Assembly: GCA_016209525.1 (NCBI GenBank)
Contig: JACQWK010000626.1
Span: 1 to 34,428, forward strand
Source: Verrucomicrobiota bacterium
GTDB lineage: Bacteria > Verrucomicrobiota > Verrucomicrobiia > Limisphaerales > SIBE01
Reading direction: 5' to 3'
DNA: 34,428 nt
Shown: in pieces, positions 77 through 34,135 of the stretch
Numbering within the stretch: position 1 is the first letter of the stretch
How the letters are laid out: each line of letters opens with the position of its first letter
Position numbers and translations under genes: made by a program
Notes under the pieces: model-generated
Databases searched by the model: none
What the model was told of the DNA's origin: nothing
Seen by the model: only the letters and a program-made list of their open reading frames with translations

Positions 77-94
77 GGACAGTCGTCCGAAGGC

Positions 95-235
95 GTAGAT
101 TTTCAATCTGCCGTATCTCCGACTTGCAGTCGGCTGGCCGTCGGATCGGCCGGAACCGTCCGATTGGTCAACCCCCCGCAGGATGCAATCCTGCGATACG
201 GCAGATTGGAAATCTGCGCCACGTTAAACAGACAC
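95..235. repeat. Four-hairpin interspersed repeat, copy 1 of 5
   Basis: This copy holds several short-loop hairpins in a row: CAGATT..AATCTG types, GCCGACTTGCAGTCGGC and GCAGGATGCAATCCTGC. It ends with the 'CTGCG(C/A)NACG' tail shared by the copies near 22.4, 24.4, 31.0 and 34.0 kb. It is a non-coding interspersed palindromic element and lies directly upstream of the debranching enzyme, so that gene's promoter may sit inside or beyond it. Confidence 0.85.
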
Positions 236-5153: not shown

Positions 5154-8100
5154 CTAATCTATCTGGAGCACGCGGTAGAACCGCTCGGACCGCGCGTTCC
5201 TTGAGGTGTCCGCTTTCGAACCCGTCGTGCCGGTTGCGGTCACGGCACCCTCCAGCGAAAGCCAGTCCAATTGGCTCAGGCTGTCCTTGTATTGAACCAC
5301 GTAGGTCCGTCCAGGCACCGCGTTCCACAAGATCGTGGTTTCAGAGCCTGTCAGCGAGCGGAGAACCATCGCGCGGAAGAGCGAAGCGTCGGCGGTCGGG
5401 TTGGTTCCCGCTTTGAACTCATCGAGGTCACGCATGCCGTCTCCATCGAAGTCACCGGCGCCATCGCGAGACAAGCCGCCGAAGTGGGTCATCTCCCAAT
5501 CATCATCGATGGCGTCTTGGTCGGAATCCCTCAGGCTGAGTTGCACGACAAAAATGTCGCTCGCAGAATTGAGATCCCCTGCGCCCAAATCGCTCGCGAA
5601 GCTTTGGAAGACGACCGTCCGGCCATTGCCACTGATCAAGGGTTTGACGGAAGTCCGATCTCCGGGGCCGTCACCGGTCCGGCTTCGGCTGAGCAAGGTC
5701 GTTTGATCCCGCACGCGGTCGTAGAGGAAAACGTCGGTGAAACCATTGTCGTCGCCACGGACAAGGTCGCTGGCTCTGCTGGCAAAGACCACGTACCGTC
5801 CGTCGCCGCTGATGGACGGCCAGAACGAATCGTCATTGCCGCGGCCCGTTCGGGTCTCGCTCAAGGAGGCGTAGGTTCGGGCGCCGGAATCGCGGTGGAG
5901 CAGCGTGATTTGCCGTTTGTTGGCAGGAGTGGAGGTTAAGGTTTCGAAAGCGAGCCAACTCCCATCAGCGGTCGTCTTGGGCAGCGAAACCGCCAGGGAG
6001 ATGGGCTCCTGAACCCGTTTCGCGATGTCGTAGAAGTAGAGGTTCGTCGAGTTGTGGAGGAGGGCCAGGAAGCGGCTTTCCTCACTGAACGTTTGCGCGG
6101 GCGCAGGTCGGCGGATCGGCGGAGCCAGGGTCGATGGGGTGACGACCCACGAGGTCGATCGAGTCCTCAATTCGGTCAGGAACAACCTGAAGCCGCCCGC
6201 GGGAGGGTCCGTTGTGAGATCGGTGGCGGCGCTGTGGAACGCGAGGAACTGTCCGTCCGGACTGAGCCTAGGATTGATCGATTCGCCGTTGCCGGCTTGC
6301 CTCCCAGTGATCGCGGCCGACACCAGCGAATTCCTGCCGCCGATGGCATCGTAAAGATAAACATCGTTTGCGGCCCGCCCCGCGGCGTCATCAGGGAATT
6401 GTCTTGGGAATGTCACTCCGCTCACCAAATTGAACGCCGCGCTCTGAAACGCCACGAAGCGGCCATCGTCACTGAGGCTCGGCGAAGTGGAAGCACCATT
6501 GGCGCTCGCGTTGCCGTCGGCACTCCGGCTGACCAGAACGGTTCTGCCCGCCACCAAATCCCGCAGAAAGACATCATCAACTCGGTTCGTGTCGTTAGTC
6601 ACCAGGTTCTGGGCGGCGCTGACAAAGGCAACAAACCGCCCGTTCTTGCTCAATACCGGATCGCGGGATGCGCCATTTGCGGTCGTCGATCCGTCGAAGC
6701 TCGCCGTCACCATGAGGTTGCTGCCCGTCACCAAGTCATGGACGACGATGTCCGGCAAGCCGTTGGTGTCGTTCGGCAGAAGATTATCCGCCAGACTCGT
6801 GAACAGGACATAACGCCCCTCCGCATCGATCGCGTTTAGCGAGAGAGAACTCGGCCCATTCGCTGTTGCCGAGGGCAGCGTCGGATGGCGCTCCGAGACA
6901 AGGCTCAATGTGTCCAATGCGAGGTCTCGCACGAAAAGGTCGGTGGCGTTGTTGCGGTCTTCATTCGTAAGATCCGTCGCAAGGCTTTCAAAGGCGGCCC
7001 AGCGCGCGTCCGGAGTGATCGAGAGACCACGAACGTCCCGTCGATCCAAAGCTGTGCCAAGCGAGCTTCCGCTGAGCAGCCGCGTTGTTTTCGTCGTCAG
7101 GTCACGGATAAAAGCCTGCGAAGTTCCGGCGACGAGATTGGTGACAAGATCGGTGGCGTCGCTCAAGAAAGCCAGGTAGCTGCCGTCTGCGCTGAGCACA
7201 GGCGTATCTGAATTGCCCGCTGCCGGAACTTCGCCGCTCAAGTTTGCGCTCGCGAGGCTTGTGGCCGCTGTGGCCGCATCCCAAACGCGGATCACGCGCT
7301 GACCGGTCGCGTTGATTTTGCTTTCGAAGGCGACGAAGCGTCCGTCAGCACTGATGACCGGCCCAGACATGTCCTCGGTCCCGGCCACCACACCGACCGC
7401 ATCGCTGCTGACGAAGACCGTCGAACCCGTCTGCAGATCATAGCGGAGGAGGACCGCACCGTCACCGCTCAAAGTACCCGTCGAACTCGTGAGGACGGTC
7501 TTGAATGCCACGTAACGTCCGTCCTCGCTGATGGCCGGATTGCTGGATGAAAGCGCGCGACGCGGCTCAAGCGCAGGGAATCTGGTTCTGTCGGAGCTGA
7601 TCCAAGCGGTTTTCCCGTCAAGCATGTCCCTGACGTAAATCTCATTGAAACCATTCGTCGCGCCAGGTGCGAGGTTCGTCGCCTGGCTCGTGAAGGCGAT
7701 AAATCTTGCGTTCGGCGTGATGACCGAGCCGAAAGAAACCGCGTTTGCTGGACCGACACCGGTTGGGTCCGCGCTGACCAAGCGCGTGACGCCGGTCTGT
7801 ACGTCGCGCAGAAAAACGTCGGTGGCATTGTTCGCGTCGTTCGCCGTCAAGTTTGACGCTTCGCTCTCGAAGACTACGAATTTTCCATCCCGTGAAATCA
7901 CCGGGTTCGATGCAGCTCCGTTGGCGCTGCGAGTGCCGGCGAGATCGACGCTCACCAGGATGGTCTTGCCCGTGGCCAAGTCGCGGATGAAGACATCGCT
8001 CAGGCCATTGGAATCATTGGTCACAAGGTCGCTCGCCTCGCTCGTGAACGCCACAAACCTGCCGTCCTCAGAAATCCCGCCAAGCAAGGAGTGACCGTTG

Positions 8101-8411
8101 CCACCCGACAAGCCGGCACCGGCGACGCTGATCAATGTGGTCGTCCGGGTCCGCAGATCGCGGACGAAGACGTCCATCCAGCCTCCGTTCTGATCGTTGG
8201 TCACCAGATTGTCGGCCGTGCTCATGAACGCGATGGCATGTCCATCCCGGCTGAAGAGCGGAAAGGTGGAATCACCGCCCGCGGTAACGCTGGTGAGCCG
8301 GGGCGATGATTTGGAGATCGTCTGAGTCGGAGCAGGTTCAGAGGCCGCTACAGACGGCGCCATCAGTACGACCCACAGAGCCGCCATTCTCTGGTAAGCT
8401 GAAGGTCTCAT
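5154..8411 (-). CDS. Secreted TolB/WD40-like beta-propeller protein with acidic C-terminal calcium-type motif
   Basis: A 1085-residue protein starting at ATG with a signal peptide (about 1-23, ending VAASEP). Most of it is a tandem of roughly 60-residue repeats built on 'DGRFVAF.S.A.NLV.NDTN...DVF.RDL.TG.T.LVS', the WD40-like (PD40) propeller pattern seen in TolB-type and many verrucomicrobial secreted proteins. More than ten such units fill residues about 40-950, enough for more than one propeller. Near the C-terminus, DSDQDAIDDDWE followed by DFDGDGMRDLDEF resembles Ca-binding thrombospondin-3/dockerin-like loops. The last 90 residues (VPGRTYVVQYKDS... ERFYRVLQ) match a C-terminal module common in secreted Verrucomicrobia proteins. 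It is likely extracellular or surface-bound; no catalytic residues are recognised. The gene stands alone. Confidence 0.8.
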   Translation of the reverse strand: MRPSAYQRMAALWVVLMAPSVAASEPAPTQTISKSSPRLTSVTAGGDSTFPLFSRDGHAIAFMSTADNLVTNDQNGGWMDVFVRDLRTRTTTLISVAGAGLSGGNGHSLLGGISEDGRFVAFTSEASDLVTNDSNGLSDVFIRDLATGKTILVSVDLAGTRSANGAASNPVISRDGKFVVFESEASNLTANDANNATDVFLRDVQTGVTRLVSADPTGVGPANAVSFGSVITPNARFIAFTSQATNLAPGATNGFNEIYVRDMLDGKTAWISSDRTRFPALEPRRALSSSNPAISEDGRYVAFKTVLTSSTGTLSGDGAVLLRYDLQTGSTVFVSSDAVGVVAGTEDMSGPVISADGRFVAFESKINATGQRVIRVWDAATAATSLASANLSGEVPAAGNSDTPVLSADGSYLAFLSDATDLVTNLVAGTSQAFIRDLTTKTTRLLSGSSLGTALDRRDVRGLSITPDARWAAFESLATDLTNEDRNNATDLFVRDLALDTLSLVSERHPTLPSATANGPSSLSLNAIDAEGRYVLFTSLADNLLPNDTNGLPDIVVHDLVTGSNLMVTASFDGSTTANGASRDPVLSKNGRFVAFVSAAQNLVTNDTNRVDDVFLRDLVAGRTVLVSRSADGNASANGASTSPSLSDDGRFVAFQSAAFNLVSGVTFPRQFPDDAAGRAANDVYLYDAIGGRNSLVSAAITGRQAGNGESINPRLSPDGQFLAFHSAATDLTTDPPAGGFRLFLTELRTRSTSWVVTPSTLAPPIRRPAPAQTFSEESRFLALLHNSTNLYFYDIAKRVQEPISLAVSLPKTTADGSWLAFETLTSTPANKRQITLLHRDSGARTYASLSETRTGRGNDDSFWPSISGDGRYVVFASRASDLVRGDDNGFTDVFLYDRVRDQTTLLSRSRTGDGPGDRTSVKPLISGNGRTVVFQSFASDLGAGDLNSASDIFVVQLSLRDSDQDAIDDDWEMTHFGGLSRDGAGDFDGDGMRDLDEFKAGTNPTADASLFRAMVLRSLTGSETTILWNAVPGRTYVVQYKDSLSQLDWLSLEGAVTATGTTGSKADTSRNARSERFYRVLQID

Positions 8412-8504
8412 GGAGTGCGAGGAAGTGGTGTCCCACGATTTCTTGGAGGATTGGTTGCGTTGAATGCATAGCGAGATTGGTGCCGATTCCGGCGGTTGAA
8501 TTCA

Positions 8505-8535
8505 TGAACCGTAGCCGCCGACGTAAGGAGGCGGA
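8505..8535. repeat. Truncated TGAACCGTAGCCGCCGACG element
   Basis: The sequence TGAACCGTAGCCGCCGACGT followed by AAGGAGGCGG matches the left half of the elements at 11352-11440 and 25194-25275. The right half is missing, and the next repeat (8536-8690) begins at once. Confidence 0.65.
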
Positions 8536-8690
8536 ACCGTGTCAAATCCGAAATCCGAAATCCGAAACAAAACCGAAATACCGAAACCCGAATTCAAAAG
8601 CCATGTGGCCTGGTGCCGTTTTGAGCCTTGGAACTTTCGGATTTTGAATTTGTCTCGGATTTCGGATTTCGAGCTTTGGATGGGTGGTGC
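8536..8690. repeat. Foldback repeat, CCGAAATCC arms
   Basis: The left arm has three AAATCCG iterations and the right arm has the complementary CGGATTTCGGATTTCGAG. The reverse complement of the right arm matches 4817-4868 with only a few differences. It lies in the gene-poor stretch 8412-9032. The rest of that stretch (8691-9032) shows no gene I can support. Confidence 0.75.
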
Positions 8691-9032
8691 CCCCAATGGC
8701 GGGATGCCCGCTGTTAGAATCGTGCCAGAAAGGCGGGTTTTGCTTTTCACATACGCCCATCCTTTGGTTGAACCCTGCATCTCGGGCGGTCCGGCATTTG
8801 CTGCAAGTTCATTCCAGTCAGCCAGACCGTTTAGAATCTCCAAGCGTGCGCCATGCGCCGACGCTAGACTGCCAAGGGGAACAAAGGGAACACGGTCTGT
8901 GGATTGAGCATGCCGGAATGCGTGAGGCTCGCGCACATTGCGCCTTTTCCACGCCTGTCGTTGTGGTGGGGAACAGACTTCGCAACTCGATCCACAGACC
9001 CCAATCTGGCGTGGGTGGCGACGGACAGAATT

Positions 9033-9851
9033 ATGAAGAGTCACCTTGAGCAAGCTTTCACCGTTGTTGAACTCCTGGTGCTGCTGGCCGTGGTCAGTCT
9101 GTTATGGGTGTTGCATTGGCCGGTGCGCGGCAGTTCCAGAGGCCCGACCCAAACGGCCGTTTGTTTATACAACCACCGGCAGTTGTCGCTGGCTTGGTTG
9201 ATGTACGCGGCGGAGAACCGCGACATGCTGGCAGGCAACCTAGATGGGGGCGATTCCCAGAATACGGCCAGGTCCAACCGAACCTGGTGCGTGGGCTGGA
9301 TGGATCTCACGGGGAGTCCTCACAACACGAACATCGCGCTTTTGCTCAACTCACAACTTGGCCGCTACGCGCGGACCGCGAAGGTTTTCAAATGTCCGGC
9401 CGATAAGAGCCGGAGCCATGGGATTACAGGAGCCCCGCGCGTGAGGAGCGTGGCGATGAATGCGTATGTGGGGGAACGCACAGGACCGTTCTCGGCCGGT
9501 TATCGGCAATTCCGCAAGTTGTCCGAGTTCAGCGATCCAGCGCCGGCGAAGGCGTTCGTGTTCATCGACGAACGCGAAGACAGCATCAACGACGGCTGGT
9601 TCCCGATGGATATGGGGAGCTATGACCCACGCCTGCCCTCGTCTGATCGCATCATCGATTACCCGGCGGACTGGCACAATCGCGGGGCTAATCTCTCGTT
9701 CGCGGATGGCCACGTCGAGACTTGGCGGTGGAAGGATCAACGCACCATGCCGGCTCACCGTCCCGGAAACCTTTTGTCTCTCGGTATCTCCTCGCCCAAT
9801 AACCCCGATGTGACGCGGTTGCAGGAAGCGTGCAGCAGAAAAGTCCGCTAA
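9033..9851 (+). CDS. Prepilin-type / pseudopilin-like protein with H-X9-DG motif
   Basis: A 272-residue protein. A short basic leader is followed by QA|FTVVELLVLLAVVSLLW, a type IV prepilin/pseudopilin cleavage motif with Glu at +5 and a hydrophobic helix. The residue at -1 is Ala where Gly is usual. The C-terminus carries HNRGANLSFADGH, an exact H-x9-DG motif of the prepilin-associated domain abundant in Verrucomicrobia and Planctomycetes. The domain between has the usual 'CxYNHRQLSLAWLMYAxENRD' start. The start was placed at 9033 because the prepilin leader begins there; an in-frame TTG at 8904 would add 43 unrelated residues. It is probably inserted in the inner membrane and processed by a prepilin peptidase; its partners are not in the window. 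The stop overlaps the Fur gene's stop by 3 bp, tail to tail. Confidence 0.85.
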   Translation: MKSHLEQAFTVVELLVLLAVVSLLWVLHWPVRGSSRGPTQTAVCLYNHRQLSLAWLMYAAENRDMLAGNLDGGDSQNTARSNRTWCVGWMDLTGSPHNTNIALLLNSQLGRYARTAKVFKCPADKSRSHGITGAPRVRSVAMNAYVGERTGPFSAGYRQFRKLSEFSDPAPAKAFVFIDEREDSINDGWFPMDMGSYDPRLPSSDRIIDYPADWHNRGANLSFADGHVETWRWKDQRTMPAHRPGNLLSLGISSPNNPDVTRLQEACSRKVR

Positions 9852-10321
9852 CAGGACTTATTCTTGCACGCGCCCAGCTTCTTCAATTCCTCACAGCTTG
9901 CGGTAATCTGAAGCCGCTGGGTTTTGATCAAGAACCCCAATTTGTGGCTGATTTCGTCTTCGAGCCTGGCGATTTTCTCGCTCTCGAACTCGACGATTTT
10001 GTCGCAGTCCTGGCAGATGATGTGGTTGTGATTGGGGTGCTCCGCGTAGTTGGGATCGTAAAATTTGTAATCTTTGCCGAAGTCCATTTCTCGCACCAGG
10101 CCGCTTTCTGTCAGCAGTGGCAACGTTCGGTAAACCGTGGCGCGGGAGACGGAACGATCGCGCTGCCTCGACCATTCCAAGAGTTGCTCGGCGGTGAAAT
10201 GTTTGTCGGTGCCGAAGACGGCTTCAATGATCGCCTGGCGCTGCGCTGTGAGCCGCAGGTTCTTCCTCGTGAGAAAATCCATGAACCTCTGCTTCGCATT
10301 CGATTTCGTGCTCACCGGCAT
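9848..10321 (-). CDS. Fur-family metal-dependent transcriptional regulator
   Basis: A 157-residue protein with typical Fur architecture. The N-terminal winged helix spans about residues 15-85, with recognition region SRATVYRTLPLLTESGLV. It is followed by a dimerisation/metal domain with HPNHNH (95-100) and CQDC (C103, C106), plus further cysteines C143, C152 and C157 that could complete a structural zinc site. The family senses Fe, Zn, Mn or peroxide; the sequence alone does not say which. The ATG at 10321 sits 6 nt from a good -10 hexamer, so the mRNA may be leaderless. An internal ATG at residue 14 has GAGG close upstream and is an alternative start. The 3' end overlaps the prepilin-like gene convergently. 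Confidence 0.92.
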   Translation of the reverse strand: MPVSTKSNAKQRFMDFLTRKNLRLTAQRQAIIEAVFGTDKHFTAEQLLEWSRQRDRSVSRATVYRTLPLLTESGLVREMDFGKDYKFYDPNYAEHPNHNHIICQDCDKIVEFESEKIARLEDEISHKLGFLIKTQRLQITASCEELKKLGACKNKSC

Positions 10322-10327
10322 GAAAGC

Positions 10328-10355
10328 AGTATATTTGACGCCTGAGACAAGTCAA
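10328..10355 (-). promoter_or_regulatory. Sigma70-type promoter for the Fur-family gene
   Basis: Minus-strand TTGACT (10355-10350), a 16-nt spacer and TATACT (10333-10328). The expected start of transcription coincides with the A of the ATG at 10321, which predicts a leaderless transcript. No clear Fur box (GATAATGAT-type) is seen. Confidence 0.6.
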
Positions 10356-10424
10356 CGCAACCCGTGCCTCCGCGCCCGTTCTGGGCGCATCTTGACACTT
10401 CCACTGAATCGCCAACGGCGTAAC

Positions 10425-10565
10425 TCCCTCTCTTCCACGAAGTGGAGGAGAGGGCCGGGGAGAGGAGGAGCCTTTCATCCAAGCACGTCTGGCCACGGTC
10501 ACCACACGAGATTGCCCTCTCCCCGACCCTCTCCCACTTCTGCGTCGTAGGAGAGGGAGAAAGCG
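10425..10565. repeat. Degenerate CTCTCCC/GGGAGAGG palindromic repeat
   Basis: CTCTTCCACGAAGTGGAGGAG forms a hairpin. It is followed by GGGGAGAGG and, about 80 nt later, by the complementary CCTCTCCCC and GGAGAGGGAGA. It is related to the CCCCTCACCC family but lacks the CCCCTCACCC ends. It lies between the Fur and FmdB-like genes (10356-10639), where no gene is seen. Confidence 0.55.
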
Positions 10566-10639
10566 ACGGTGGCCGTGTCAAGATCCGCCCGCCCGTTCCT
10601 CTCTATGAAGCGTCACGTCGGCCCTTACGGTTCGTGGTG

Positions 10640-10846
10640 CTAGCGTTTGGATCGCTTCACATTCAGGGAAAGGATGCTGGCACCGTGGGTCACAATCCCG
10701 CTCCCGCCGACAATCACCCGCCGCACAGGTAATCCGGTCTCCGGATCAACCTTCAGCGGCGGATCGCTCATTTTTTGTTCCACTTCGAAGCGCCGAGGCG
10801 TCTGTCGAGGGTCCCGTGGAATCGTTTCATAGACATAGGTGGCCAT
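10640..10846 (-). CDS. FmdB-like small protein lacking zinc-ribbon cysteines
   Basis: A 68-residue protein beginning MATYVYETIP, with RRFEVEQKMSDPPLK and GLPVRRVIVGGSGI. The order and spacing match FmdB-family putative regulatory proteins (MPTYEY..C..C...FE, then SDPPL..C..C...VRR.ISGG). All four zinc-ribbon cysteines are absent: the first pair is replaced by a Pro/Arg-rich loop and the second by DPETG. The role of FmdB proteins is poorly known; without the ribbon, zinc binding is unlikely. The start at 10846 fits the family N-terminus; an in-frame ATG at 10894 would add 16 residues. It stands between repeats, and the downstream partner is unclear. Confidence 0.7.
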   Translation of the reverse strand: MATYVYETIPRDPRQTPRRFEVEQKMSDPPLKVDPETGLPVRRVIVGGSGIVTHGASILSLNVKRSKR

Positions 10847-11070
10847 AGTTCTAATCTTGAATTCCAATAACTCACTCTCATCTTGAGTGTCCATTCAGCT
10901 TCTTGCTCATAGTTCGGAAAATGGCAACTCGTTTGTGCGGGACGTTTCGTCGCGCTGCCTTCAGGCTGCTTCCGACTCGACTCTGGCATCAAACGTTGAA
11001 GTGGCCTGAAGGCCGCGCTCTGGAAGGGGCACGGGTAGCCTCCGAGCGGTCCTCGCGCGCATTGGGACGA

Positions 11071-11165
11071 TGAACCAGTTGAACGGGTGGGGCGAGACTC
11101 CCGTCGAGCCCTGGAATCCTTGCTGGCAAAGAAGCCAGGGCTCGACAGGAGTCTCACCCCACCAG
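11071..11165. repeat. Palindromic element A of the 11-kb array
   Basis: The arms 11085-11114 and 11135-11163 are near-perfect inverted repeats, built on GGGGCGAGACTCC / GGAGTCTCACCCC and GTCGAGCCCTGG / CCAGGGCTCGAC. The element starts with TGAACC and is followed by GGTTCATGG, the termini shared by its two neighbours. Confidence 0.8.
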
Positions 11166-11211
11166 GAGGTTCATGGAAAGCCCCCACGCCAAATTTGGCG
11201 CGCATTGGGAC

Positions 11212-11320
11212 CTTGAACCGAGGATTGGCCCGGAGCGCGGGCGGCTCGCCCGCACTTTCGGACCAGGGCGAGAAACTCGCGGGCGAGCCGCCCGCGCTCC
11301 AATCAGGCGGTTCATGGAGA
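11212..11320. repeat. Palindromic element B of the 11-kb array
   Basis: A perfect 22-bp inverted repeat (11232-11253 and 11279-11300; core GCGGGCGGCTCGCCCGC) is enclosed by TTGAACCG on the left and CGGTTCATGG on the right. A second copy of the core lies at 33533-33601. Confidence 0.85.
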
Positions 11321-11351
11321 GCCTCCAAGCGGTTCGCGCACGCATTGGGAC

Positions 11352-11451
11352 CTTGAACCGTAGCCGCCGACGTGAGGAGGCGGATATTGGTTTTAACCAC
11401 GTCTTCCGCCTCGTTACCTCGGCGGCTACGAACCGTCGGTTCATGGAGAGT
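11352..11451. repeat. Palindromic element C of the 11-kb array
   Basis: TTGAACCGTAGCCGCCGACG on the left pairs with CCTCGGCGGCTACGAACCG on the right, and the element is followed by GGTTCATGGAGAG. Related copies lie at 25194-25275 (complete) and 8505-8535 (left half only). Confidence 0.85.
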
Positions 11452-11547
11452 TGAATTGTGCCGGGCGATTCACCACAATAACGCGCGAACTGTGTGGCGA
11501 GATCGGACAACGCAGAACGGGACCCCGCGATTGGCAGGAGCCGCCTG

Positions 11548-13203
11548 ATGAGCAACGAGCCCCTTTTGGAGACCACCGCGTTTGAATTGGCGGATTATCT
11601 CCTCAAAAATGGAAAAGGCGACAAAGCGTTTGAGCTCCTCAAGGATCTCATCCTCCGGAATCCCCGCGAGATTTCACCTCGATCCGCCACAGCGCTGGCT
11701 CGAATGCTCTACGACGGCAAGAACTGGCAGGATGCCGGCACGCTTTGGCGGTCCCTCGCCCACTCGGATGCCGCCACCGCCGAGGCCTGGATCAAACTGG
11801 CTCATTGCTTGATCGAACTCAATCAATCCGCCGAAGCCGAGAGTTGCGCGGCCAAAGCAAGGGCAATTCTGGAAAATCGGCCGGCCCAGCAAGCAACGGC
11901 CAGCGCCGACCAATGGCTGGCCGGGTTATATGAACAGATTTGTCTTCACTTTCTTGGCCACGACTTGCCCAAGCTCAACGATATCTTGAGGATATTCGCG
12001 CTCCCCGGCACCTATCTGAAGAGTGTTGGCACTGTGAAAGGGCCTGGCGGGTTGAGCGCAGACCTGACCGACGAAGGAATCCGGCGGAGATTGGACAATG
12101 CGTTGCGGCAATGGGAAGCCGCCGGGCGCACCGTCCCGTATCTATTGCAGTGCCGGGGACAGCCCAGTGTCACGCGGCTGCCTCAAGCGCCGCCTGCCAA
12201 GAAAATCCTGCTGGTTCTCCGCAAGTTGTTTCTTGGGCGCGCCGATTCCCGCGAGCACGAACTGGGCGTTTTCTTTCAGGCCTCGGCTCGAGCGGTCGGC
12301 CTGGAGACGCTCTTCTTCCCGGCGGATCCGTTTTTGAATCCGACTTCCGTCACGCCTGAAACTCAGTATTCCGAACTGGACCGGCTCGCGCGGCTTATCC
12401 TCTCGGCGAAGCCTGATCTGGTGATTTTCGACGATCTGTGCAACCGGAAGACTGAGGGCGACTACATCGCTCCGGAGGTGTACAAAAGCGTTTTGACGAC
12501 GCTCAAAGCCAAGCAACCCTTCACGCTGGTTGGTTTCTATCCGGATTCTTGGACGCCGGCGACGATCCGCACGATTGAGTATGTCCGGCCGTTCATTGAC
12601 GTGGTTTGGCACCTGAGCCATTTTCAGTCTCAAGCGGAAAGCCATCCCACTGGCGCTCGAATGTTTTGGGCGCCGGTTCCTTACCCGGAAAATCTTTTCC
12701 AGCCGGGTGCCGGAGGCAAGGACATGGGCGCCGCATTTGTGGGCAGCCTATTCGACTATAACTGTCCGAGAGGCATTTGGCTTTCTTTGATCCGCCTTCA
12801 GAATATCCCCTGCCAGCTCGTGCTGTCCACGCATACGACCAGCGGCTCCAAAGCCGGCGTGACTCCCGCCGAATATGCCGCCTTCATGAGCCGGCTGCGG
12901 ATGAGTGTCAATTTCTCGGCGCGCACGACGGACCGGAAGATCATGACCGGACGAGCCTGGGAGTCGATCATTTCCAAAAGCCTGCTCCTGGAAGAAGACA
13001 ACGAAGAGATCAAACGGTTTTTCGTTCCTTTCGTGCATTATGTGCCGTTCCGGAACATCCATGAGCTGCAAACCTACATCCGCTTTTTTGACCGAAACGA
13101 AACCCCGCGACGCGCGATCGCGGAGCGGGCGTTTGACTGGTTTCGCGAAGTTTTTTCCAAAGAACGGATTTGGAGCGAGCTAATCTTGGGAACCGCGTCC
13201 TGA
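11548..13203 (+). CDS. TPR plus CgeB-like glycosyltransferase
   Basis: A 551-residue, probably cytoplasmic protein. Residues about 10-125 are alpha-helical with TPR character (GDKAFELLKDLILRNP, AWIKLAHCLIELNQSAEAES). The C-terminal region from about residue 390 (AAFVGSLFDYNCPRG, then an SVNFSARTTDRKIMTGRAWE stretch and LLEEDNEEIKRFFVPFVHYV) matches the CgeB/glycosyl-transferases-group-1 type seen in spore-maturation and surface-glycan enzymes. The middle part (LVIFDDLCNRKTEGDYI, TLVGFYPDSW) resembles the Rossmann-like acceptor domain of the same group. The start at 11548 is supported by AGGAG 7 nt upstream, one of the few good ribosome sites here. It is the first gene of a glycan-modification island. 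Donor and acceptor are unknown. Confidence 0.78.
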   Translation: MSNEPLLETTAFELADYLLKNGKGDKAFELLKDLILRNPREISPRSATALARMLYDGKNWQDAGTLWRSLAHSDAATAEAWIKLAHCLIELNQSAEAESCAAKARAILENRPAQQATASADQWLAGLYEQICLHFLGHDLPKLNDILRIFALPGTYLKSVGTVKGPGGLSADLTDEGIRRRLDNALRQWEAAGRTVPYLLQCRGQPSVTRLPQAPPAKKILLVLRKLFLGRADSREHELGVFFQASARAVGLETLFFPADPFLNPTSVTPETQYSELDRLARLILSAKPDLVIFDDLCNRKTEGDYIAPEVYKSVLTTLKAKQPFTLVGFYPDSWTPATIRTIEYVRPFIDVVWHLSHFQSQAESHPTGARMFWAPVPYPENLFQPGAGGKDMGAAFVGSLFDYNCPRGIWLSLIRLQNIPCQLVLSTHTTSGSKAGVTPAEYAAFMSRLRMSVNFSARTTDRKIMTGRAWESIISKSLLLEEDNEEIKRFFVPFVHYVPFRNIHELQTYIRFFDRNETPRRAIAERAFDWFREVFSKERIWSELILGTAS

Positions 13204-22381: not shown

Positions 22382-22561
22382 CAGTCTTGCCCGGCCTTAG
22401 AGCGGTCGTTTCGTAACGCAGATTTTCAATCTGCTGTAGCGCAGAATTGCATTCTGCGGACGCCTCGCATTGCCAAGCACTCCCTCAGTCTCGCACGCCC
22501 AGCCAAGTGCAACTCGGCGATACGGCAGATTGAAAATCTGCGCTACGCTGTGCAAGACTGA
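22382..22561. repeat. Four-hairpin interspersed repeat, copy 2 of 5
   Basis: It contains GCAGATTTTCAATCTGC, GCAGAATTGCATTCTGC and GCAGATTGAAAATCTGC hairpins between CGTAACGC and GCGCTACG ends. Outer arms CAGTCTTGC (22382) and GCAAGACTG (22552) are inverted. It lies between rpsT and tmk. Confidence 0.85.
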
Positions 22562-25189: not shown

Positions 25190-25275
25190 ATGAACTGTAG
25201 CCGGCGACGTAAGGAGGCGGATTTCGGTCTTCATCACTATGCCCGCCTCGTTACCTCGGCGGCTTCGATAGCTCT
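25190..25275. repeat. Palindromic element C, second copy
   Basis: TGAACTGTAGCCGGCGACGT then AAGGAGGCGG on the left; GCCTCGTTACCTCGGCGGCT on the right. It has the same layout as 11352-11440, without the GGTTCA right terminus. Confidence 0.8.
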
Positions 25276-25377
25276 GCGTCTCCATGGGAAGAGGACCGGG
25301 GGGAAGGAAATGGAAAGGCGGCCACGCTGGAAAATCGCAACCTCCCCTGCCCACGCCAGTGCTCGTCGGTGCCGATC

Positions 25378-30985: not shown

Positions 30986-31315
30986 GTGTCTCGTAGCGCA
31001 GACTTGCAGTCAATCAGTATCGCCTGGAATCGTCGCAAGCTGCGACGATTTCTGGCGCGCGACCTTCCAGGCCGCAGCGGCCGCACACGGAAGGCGAGGC
31101 TCGGAGATTTTCAGGCGCCTCGGTCTTTTGGAGCCGCTGCGGCCTGGAAGGCCGCGCGCGGTCTTGGTTGCGGCCTCGCCGCGCTGCGCCGTATCGCCGA
31201 CTTGAAGTCGGCAGGGCGTCGAAAGTTCCGGCACGCGTGTTCCGTTCGCCGCCGCCGCAGAATCCAATTCTGCGATACGGCAGATTGAAAATCTGCGCTA
31301 CGCTAAACAGACACC
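30986..31315. repeat. Four-hairpin interspersed repeat, copy 4 of 5, split by a nested insertion
   Basis: The left part (GTAGCGCAGACTTGCAGTC, about 30993-31012) and the right part (CCGTATCGCCGACTTGAAGT at about 31189, ending CTGCGCTACGCTAAACAGAC at 31311) are separated by about 175 bp of unrelated palindromic sequence. The adjoining stretch 30733-30985 shows nothing I can support. Confidence 0.85.
31028..31159. repeat. Nested foldback element within copy 4
   Basis: AATCGTCGCA (31028-31037)/TGCGACGATT (31041-31050) is a perfect 10-bp hairpin. A 27-bp arm at 31055-31081 is complementary to 31133-31159 at 26 of 27 positions (core CCTTCCAGGCCGCAGCGGC). Confidence 0.85.
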
Positions 31316-32543: not shown

Positions 32544-32807
32544 GGCGCGCAGCGTTTGGACTGCGGTCGATTTATCGCCGCTTTCGCACGTTCGACCGAA
32601 ACCGGGGGCAGCAATTCTCATTTTGGCCGTAGCGCGGACACTCTTGTCCGCAAGACTTCCGAAAATGTGTGGACAGGAGTGTCTGCCTTACGGTCACGAA
32701 CCGCGCCCGTTGCCAAAATAAGAATTGCTGACCGAGGGGGCTGAGTTGACCTTGGACGCTCGGACATAGCGGCGATAAATCGCACGCACTCCAAACGCTG
32801 GCGCGCC
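32544..32807. repeat. Large composite foldback element
   Basis: The outer arms run inward from GGCGCGCAGCGTTTGGA (32544-) and from the complement of CCAAACGCTGGCGCGCC (ending 32807), and share GCGATTTATCGCCGCT-type sequence. The inner arms 32609-32627 and 32712-32730 are complementary at 18 of 19 positions (CAGCAATTCT...). The centre holds GCGGACACTCTTGTCCGC and GGACAGGAGTGTCTGCC. It occupies most of 32386-32895, where no gene is seen. Confidence 0.8.
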
Positions 32808-33532: not shown

Positions 33533-33620
33533 GGAGCGCGGACGGCTCGCCCGCAATTTTTGGGGAGGAGGCAATTCTCGCGGGCGAGCCGCCCGCGCTC
33601 CGGCCCGTCCGTGGGTTCAT
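33533..33620. repeat. Palindromic element B, second copy
   Basis: The arms 33533-33554 and 33580-33601 match at 21 of 22 positions and are the same sequence as element B at 11232-11300. The right flank again runs to GGGTTCATG. It begins 23 bp upstream of the VTT gene start. Confidence 0.85.
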
Positions 33621-33904
33621 GAGCCCAACGTGTGAGGGGTTGTGATCCCGCTCGGTGAAAAACCTGCTCCAAGGATTCATAGAATGTTGGAAACGCATCG
33701 TGTTCGTCCGGCTCGGCAGTTGTAAGCCGACCGCGGCGCCAGGATCAACGATTGATTTGAACATTTGCCGCGCACCGACTCGGGTAAACACCTACCGGGT
33801 GAAGTCCGCTCTTCACAACAAGCCTGCTGGCAAGGAAACTGCATGCACGCTGGAGCCCAATGCATGGCATTTATTGATGAGTAGAGCGTCGCACCAACAA
33901 ATAG
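33602..33904. other. Stretch without recognised gene
   Basis: About 300 bp with no convincing coding frame, RNA gene or repeat family seen elsewhere in the window. A short ACTCGGGTAAACACCTACCGGGTGA motif suggests a weak hairpin. Confidence 0.5.
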
Positions 33905-33975: not shown

Positions 33976-34135
33976 AGCGTGCGGCGTCTCGTAGCGCAGA
34001 GTTGCACTCTGCCGTATCGCCGATTTGCAATCGGCAGGACGTCGCTAACTTCCAGCGTGCGCGAGTTTGTCAGCAGCTCGCAGAATGCAATTCTGCGATA
34101 CAGCAGATTACAAATCTGCGCTACGCTATACACAT
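33976..34135. repeat. Four-hairpin interspersed repeat, copy 5 of 5
   Basis: GCAGAGTTGCACTCTGC, GCCGATTTGCAATCGGC, GCAGAATGCAATTCTGC and GCAGATTACAAATCTGC hairpins between CGTAGCGCAG and CTGCGCTACG ends. Confidence 0.88.

Follow-up and report, generated by a model that had tools for sequence, protein, structure and literature searches.

REPINs are generally treated as being moved by their own RAYT. The end hairpins of IS200/IS605 elements usually resemble each other, and the attC boxes of integron cassettes follow the consensus GTTRRRY. In the accessible part of PMC8266576, TnpA-REP is described as cutting at CT beside a hairpin, and in that of PMC6006769 the IS200/IS605 enzymes are described as recognising hairpins, the left end having a fixed motif next to it and the right end a final motif. 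REP dimers lying within an outer palindrome have been reported for A. variabilis (GTAG-15), T. roseum (GTAG-23) and H. neapolitanus (CGTC-1), and according to that report no empty outer palindrome turned up in two of these three organisms (PMC3733652).

Here we describe a locus in which several unrelated palindromes of this kind follow one another between the same ends. By the window we mean the whole stretch of DNA analysed, 34,428 nucleotides long, and by the frame the shared ends that enclose the palindromic cores. A literature search, with most subscription journals out of reach, found no published description of the frame. The array probably (we put this at roughly 0.6) consists of stacked copies of a small mobile element that is non-autonomous, carries REPIN-type palindromes and is moved in trans by an HUH enzyme.

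The array in the window and its relatives

Positions 11039-11450 hold three head-to-tail units in one orientation, with a decayed fourth unit just upstream. Each unit runs from a leader hairpin through a left foot, TTGGGACCwTGAACC, and a palindromic core to a right end, GGTTCATGGAGAG, which has the form GGTTCATGGrGAG or a close variant, and the natural unit borders are 11039-11180, 11181-11321 and 11322-11450. An earlier note on this DNA had described three different palindromes between common terminal sequences, and this was confirmed: cores A (11086-11163), B (11232-11300) and C (11359-11430) are bounded by TTGGGAC[CG][AT]TGAACC on the left and by GGTTCATGGAAAG or GGTTCATGGAGAG on the right. 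The spacers that it called near-duplicates are indeed so, but each "spacer" comprises a unit's right end and the leader hairpin of the unit that follows; likewise, the single cores that it placed at 8505, 25190 and 33533 are present, but as decayed copies of the same frame. The earlier note had thus seen something real and read it mostly well. The features are as follows.

10952..11018, + strand: decayed palindromic core of the fourth unit (inverted repeat I4, 86%; likeness to REP class H judged by eye)
11026..11038, + strand: decayed right end GGGGCACGGGTAG of the fourth unit, by sequence, differing from GGTTCATGGGTAG at 3 positions
11039..11076, + strand: unit 1 leader hairpin and left foot TTGGGACGATGAACC, by sequence and DNA folding
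11086..11163, + strand: unit 1 core, a palindrome of class A (the 1.05-Mb sample described below has 33 copies, 26 of them with at least one frame end)
11168..11180, + strand: unit 1 right end GGTTCATGGAAAG
11181..11219, + strand: unit 2 leader hairpin (CCCCACGCC..GGCG..TGGG) and left foot, by DNA folding
11232..11300, + strand: unit 2 core, class B palindrome, a REPIN-like pair of GGAG-tagged REPs with perfect 22-nt arms; the same REPs flank a RAYT gene in locus L260
11309..11321, + strand: unit 2 right end GGTTCATGGAGAG
11322..11359, + strand: unit 3 leader hairpin and left foot TTGGGACCTTGAACC, by DNA folding
11359..11430, + strand: unit 3 core, class C palindrome, two inverted GTAG-tagged hairpins
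11438..11450, + strand: unit 3 right end, which is the array end
8496..8535, + strand: decayed copy, left end TTGAATTCATGAACC and half a class C core
25190..25291, + strand: decayed copy, class C core with ATGAACT on one side and TCTCCATGGGAAG on the other
about 33533..33628, - strand: decayed copy, class B core with left end TTGGGCTCATGAACC at 33614-33628
32609..32730, no strand assigned: frame 2, a separate inverted-repeat element with other cores and 19-bp ends

A 569-aa reading frame starting at 11494 comes directly after the array end, and the array itself is overlapped only by short mechanical reading frames on the opposite strand. A known structured RNA was rejected for the array, given that the 16 weak Rfam matches (E up to 1) in window positions 8000-12000 included none at the gathering score. 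All three units are predicted to fold as two hairpins in single-stranded DNA (z from -5.7 to -7.4, + strand). The leader arms covary, with pairs such as CGATT/AATCG, CGGTT/AACCG, CGCC/GGCG and GCAC/GTGC in different copies: all five positions are paired in 31 of 174 distinct leaders (collapsed from the 209 of 261 left ends used) against a maximum of 18 in 500 shuffles, which do not keep relatedness.

Chance likeness of the ends is ruled out by their abundance, as the left end CATTGGGACCTTGAACC has 186 copies in the 10.09-Mb genome (at most 2 mismatches) and its reversed control 1. A 1.05-Mb sample gave 93 left ends against 3 reversed and 113 right ends against 4 reversed; it was drawn largely from contigs known to hold the repeat, and these densities are not genome averages. 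Repeats of depth at least 3 cover 64.7 kb (6%) of this sample, which favours repeat-bearing contigs, and such elements make up a sizeable share of the intergenic DNA in those contigs. Within the family 6 of 8 genomes have the left end, and at class level 18 of 286 (17-base form, at most 1 mismatch), and the frame is patchy within one Verrucomicrobiota order, occurring in 35 of 156 genomes (exact 15-base form). Left-end matches outside Verrucomicrobiota were dropped as chance, those that were read being lone 17-mers with no right end. The named carriers are Verrucomicrobiota metagenome assemblies, whose isolate names suggest soil, lakes and groundwater. One genome of the same family as that of the window, G005 (CAMAWP01 contigs), is recorded as Akkermansia muciniphila, a record name that looks wrong.

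Palindromic cores as cargo

Across about 20 genomes, 186 distinct cores of 25-260 nt, taken from 261 left ends, fall into 46 families, a count in which the largest family (44) was chained through similar G+C-rich motifs and some low-stem singleton families, like a few of the 90 listed frame pairs (3 mismatches allowed per end), are chance matches in genes. The mean arm-to-arm score of the cores is 16.9 against 6.6 when shuffled, 33 of the 46 families score at least 12, and many cores bear GTAG or GGAG tags on their outer edges. The class B core consists of GGAGCGCGGGCGGCTCGCCCGC and its inverse, paired at 22 of 22 positions, which makes two inverted tagged hairpins, and class C has GTAG tags by sequence. 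In L260, class B REPs lie at 1073-1149 and 1823-1915 around a RAYT gene (NF047646, 82.3 bits, cut-off 80), and in L257 class H REPs stand on either side of another (NF047646, 87.1 bits); at these two RAYT genes, one REP overlaps the 3' end and encodes the tail of the protein. The cores look like REPINs, with two classes, B and H, and only these, directly tied to RAYT genes; no class A or C match was found in the 23 Y1 loci of the genome. The guess that a TnpA-REP enzyme is involved therefore held for the cargo, but not for the shared ends, to which such an enzyme has no tie.

Cores are not each confined to unique ends of their own. In the 1.05-Mb sample, counting only matches that cover at least 70% of the query (class D excepted), neither frame end was found at 7 of 33 copies of core A, 3 of 14 of C, 56 of 62 of D and 23 of 24 of H, and both frame ends were found at all 9 copies of B. 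One of the three end-less C copies (L179:12707) does carry decayed ends when its sequence is read. Of 19 sampled copies of core P in the genome of the window, 9 lie in frame 2, and in genome G004 3 of 3 copies lie in the frame of the array (frame 1). Cores do move between frames, as at least two core classes occur in other frames also. The proposal that elements exchange cores is borne out in part, by cores A, D and H outside the frame and core P in two frames. Inside the frame, however, each core class keeps its own linkers, which is better explained if a core is captured and the unit then copied as a whole than if cores are swapped freely. Class D repeats (GTAGCGCAGATTT...) are of GTAG type with several small hairpins per arm and lie mostly outside the frame (window 92-220, 22412-22547, 31253-31302 and 33990-34125), and long cores of 235-237 nt with several hairpins occur inside some frames (L115, L127, L152 and L155, KLAP45).

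Frame 2 has 19-bp inverted ends, CAGCAATTCTCATTTTGGC, around at least three unrelated palindromic cores, and a 9-bp target duplication: at least 7 of the 9 flanking bases are repeated in 9 of 19 pairs against 1 of 342 controls. With terminal inverted repeats and a target site duplication it fits a classical MITE. One end set with several palindromic cores is therefore seen twice in this genome, with differing insertion chemistry. Further copies of frame 2 lie at L168:8946, L169:12401, L194:10657 and L217:10518.

Insertion sites and stacking

Empty sites in relatives, which the earlier note had proposed to look for, were found in G004, where the empty form of a palindromic host repeat, M, is GGGGAGAG^GGTTAGGG and intact copies read GGATGGGGAGAG^GGTTAGGGAGAGGGG. 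Beside these, three M copies (out of 46 M arms seen across 20 stretches) hold a unit directly 3' of GGAGAG, two exactly at ^ and one after the next GGAGAG, and in all three the next target base resumes right after the right end of the unit. The units are insertions: they sit exactly on the 3' side of a GGrnAG-like target, and nothing other than that motif is duplicated. No target site duplication of constant length was seen for the frame, the three sites sharing only GGrnAG. The right end is sharp, with bases 0-12 (13 bases) conserved and the sequence random from base 13 in 145 distinct terminal copies. The left edge is the leader, usually preceded by AG, and array-first copies often show, by eye, a GGrnAG-like sequence there. 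The CTCC of the leader is, also by eye, complementary to the GGAG of the target, though leaders vary between copies. Empty as against occupied sites, a sharp right end and many core classes per frame bear out the view of these sequences as non-autonomous elements with common ends.

The shared ends could instead be a resident target palindrome into whose loop RAYTs put REPINs, the arrays being old tandem repeats. This would agree with the REP dimers in fixed palindromes of A. variabilis, T. roseum and H. neapolitanus (as far as the accessible part of PMC3733652 goes) and with class B and H REPs being those of resident RAYTs, but we consider it improbable, since the frame itself is precisely inserted at three places with a known empty form, a sharp right end beside random flank needs a moving frame, and empty palindromes are nearly absent, core-less frames amounting to 2 exact matches in 10 genomes.

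Units follow one another head to tail: neighbours less than 400 bp apart have the same orientation in 23 of 23 cases, and at 400-5000 bp 7 have the same and 9 the opposite orientation. The GGrnAG-like target motif resembles the element's own right end, and the pattern is most simply read as each unit having inserted at the right end of the one before it. Since target and right end are alike, each insertion would make a new target, which would explain the arrays: a fresh target would be left at the right edge, and later units would stack there. A target that regenerates itself in this way would offer a simple route to ordered arrays. In G005 one leader-plus-core unit is preceded by several different cores, GGGCAG being kept on its left and GGAGAG on its right, and near-identical recent copies of one unit lie at unrelated right flanks. 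Also in G005 (L285), a frame 2 copy is apparently split inside its end sequence by a frame 1 array, the whole being flanked, by eye, by a 14-base direct repeat.

Between neighbouring right ends, the tails match a little more often than expected (51 of 108 against 44), so some target copying or conversion is possible. This slight excess, together with the many decayed copies and the presence of cores A and P in different frames, would also suit an account with no present transposition, in which old repeats shuffle their cores and spread the ends by short-homology recombination and gene conversion. We think this more improbable still, because it sits poorly with precise insertions that keep the next target base, with strict head-to-tail order and with the near-identical recent unit copies of G005 at their unrelated right flanks.

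Proposed mode of movement and comparison with known systems

For the preferred reading, of a small element moved in trans, the best-fitting candidate is a single-strand, HUH/Y1-like mechanism. The fixed parts would be the leader hairpin and a foot stem (CCATGAACC/GGTTCATGG), and the variable part a REPIN-type palindrome, that is a pair of REPs from resident RAYT systems, at the tip of the second hairpin. REPINs would enter this tip, the composite thereafter being copied as one unit, and the mover would be an unlinked HUH (Y1-like) single-strand transposase acting in trans, with a second hairpin tip that may tolerate any palindrome. In favour of this reading, TnpA-REP cuts at CT beside a hairpin (PMC8266576), and both boundaries of the unit read AG, the complement of CT. 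Against this reading stand the lack of an enzyme linked to the ends, of strand bias (unit orientation agrees with GC skew in 29 of 52 cases, no link being seen, and skew is weak here) and of more than a few empty frames. The scarcity of core-less frames sits badly with REPINs entering empty frames, unless movement needs cores.

Mobilisation in trans, as the earlier note had suggested, is plausible, although a linked Y1 transposase was rejected: none of the 23 Y1 loci of the genome carries both frame ends within 1.5 kb, isolated weak matches only being found. A further 30 Y1 loci in related genomes gave no pair of frame ends, isolated weak matches aside, and tblastn over 2.36 Mb of loci gave three Y1 matches, none with a frame end within 1.5 kb. 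No long (autonomous) copy with an ORF was recognised when lone left ends were read by eye. A Y1 clade of about 310 aa at first seemed a good candidate for the mover but was rejected, as three strong carriers, G369, G352 and G004, lack it or have no more than distant matches to it. RAYT and integron integrase were compared in 34 hand-chosen genomes, 17 of the 20 with at least 4 left-end matches and 17 of the 121 with none. A RAYT scored over the cut-off in 13 of the 17 chosen carriers and 6 of the 17 chosen non-carriers, being commoner with the frame and not exclusive to it. The integron integrase was rejected as the mover, as it was over the cut-off in 12 of the 17 chosen carriers and 11 of the 17 chosen non-carriers, showing no association; integrases over the cut-off occur in 23 of the 34 chosen genomes of the order, and one is predicted over the curated cut-off in the genome of the window (G000:C621:1421-2362, in L192).

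Least probable of all is an integron-like or other tyrosine-recombinase cassette system in which the cores are cassettes recombining at shared ends: conserved ends, variable palindromic centres, same-orientation arrays, one unit after many neighbours and an integron integrase encoded in the genome speak for it, but no genes were seen in the cores, the ends do not, by eye, fit the attC box, copies are scattered singly, and the integrase is as common without the frame as with it among the chosen genomes.

A bolder form of the preferred reading could be considered, namely a carrier element for palindromes, in which the hairpin tip of a single-strand mobile frame captures the REPINs of any RAYT, and the frame then copies and archives them in self-extending arrays where every insertion makes the next landing site, the whole being conserved over an order of Verrucomicrobiota; we regard this as tentative, possible rather than probable. 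If true, such an element would amount to a cassette system in which other selfish hairpins serve as the cassettes. Many unrelated REPINs ride here on a second mobile layer, so that one end family, and not each RAYT, may explain a good part of the REPIN copies in these genomes, and the frame offers a natural test of how palindromes spread and are shuffled.

Among known systems, integron cassette arrays share with the frame conserved ends, variable palindromic middles and same-orientation arrays, but here we saw no cassette genes, no attC boxes by eye and no link to an integrase. Like a classical MITE the frame is short, non-coding, high in copy number and defined by shared ends, and unlike one it has no separate target duplication. 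Like IS200/IS605 elements and their non-autonomous derivatives it has hairpins at both ends and an oriented insertion that follows a short fixed motif on its 3' side and adds no further duplication; unlike them it showed no transposase copy with these ends, no clear guide pairing and, in a genome of weak skew, no visible strand bias, and its leader hairpin is unlike its core hairpin. The palindrome-inserted REP dimers likewise place a REP pair inside a conserved outer palindrome, but in the available part of PMC3733652 each outer palindrome holds one REP family, whereas here one frame holds 46 core families, forms head-to-tail arrays and shows occupied as well as empty sites. As in REPIN/RAYT (TnpA-REP) systems, the cores are inverted pairs of tagged hairpins, and hairpins of classes B and H flank resident RAYT genes; in contrast to these systems, many REPIN classes share an outer frame with a leader hairpin, a right end and an insertion site of its own, and this frame was found beside no Y1 gene seen. 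We would class the frame as a variant within REP/MITE-type mobile DNA: it is non-autonomous, and the part of it that varies consists of REPINs belonging to other elements.
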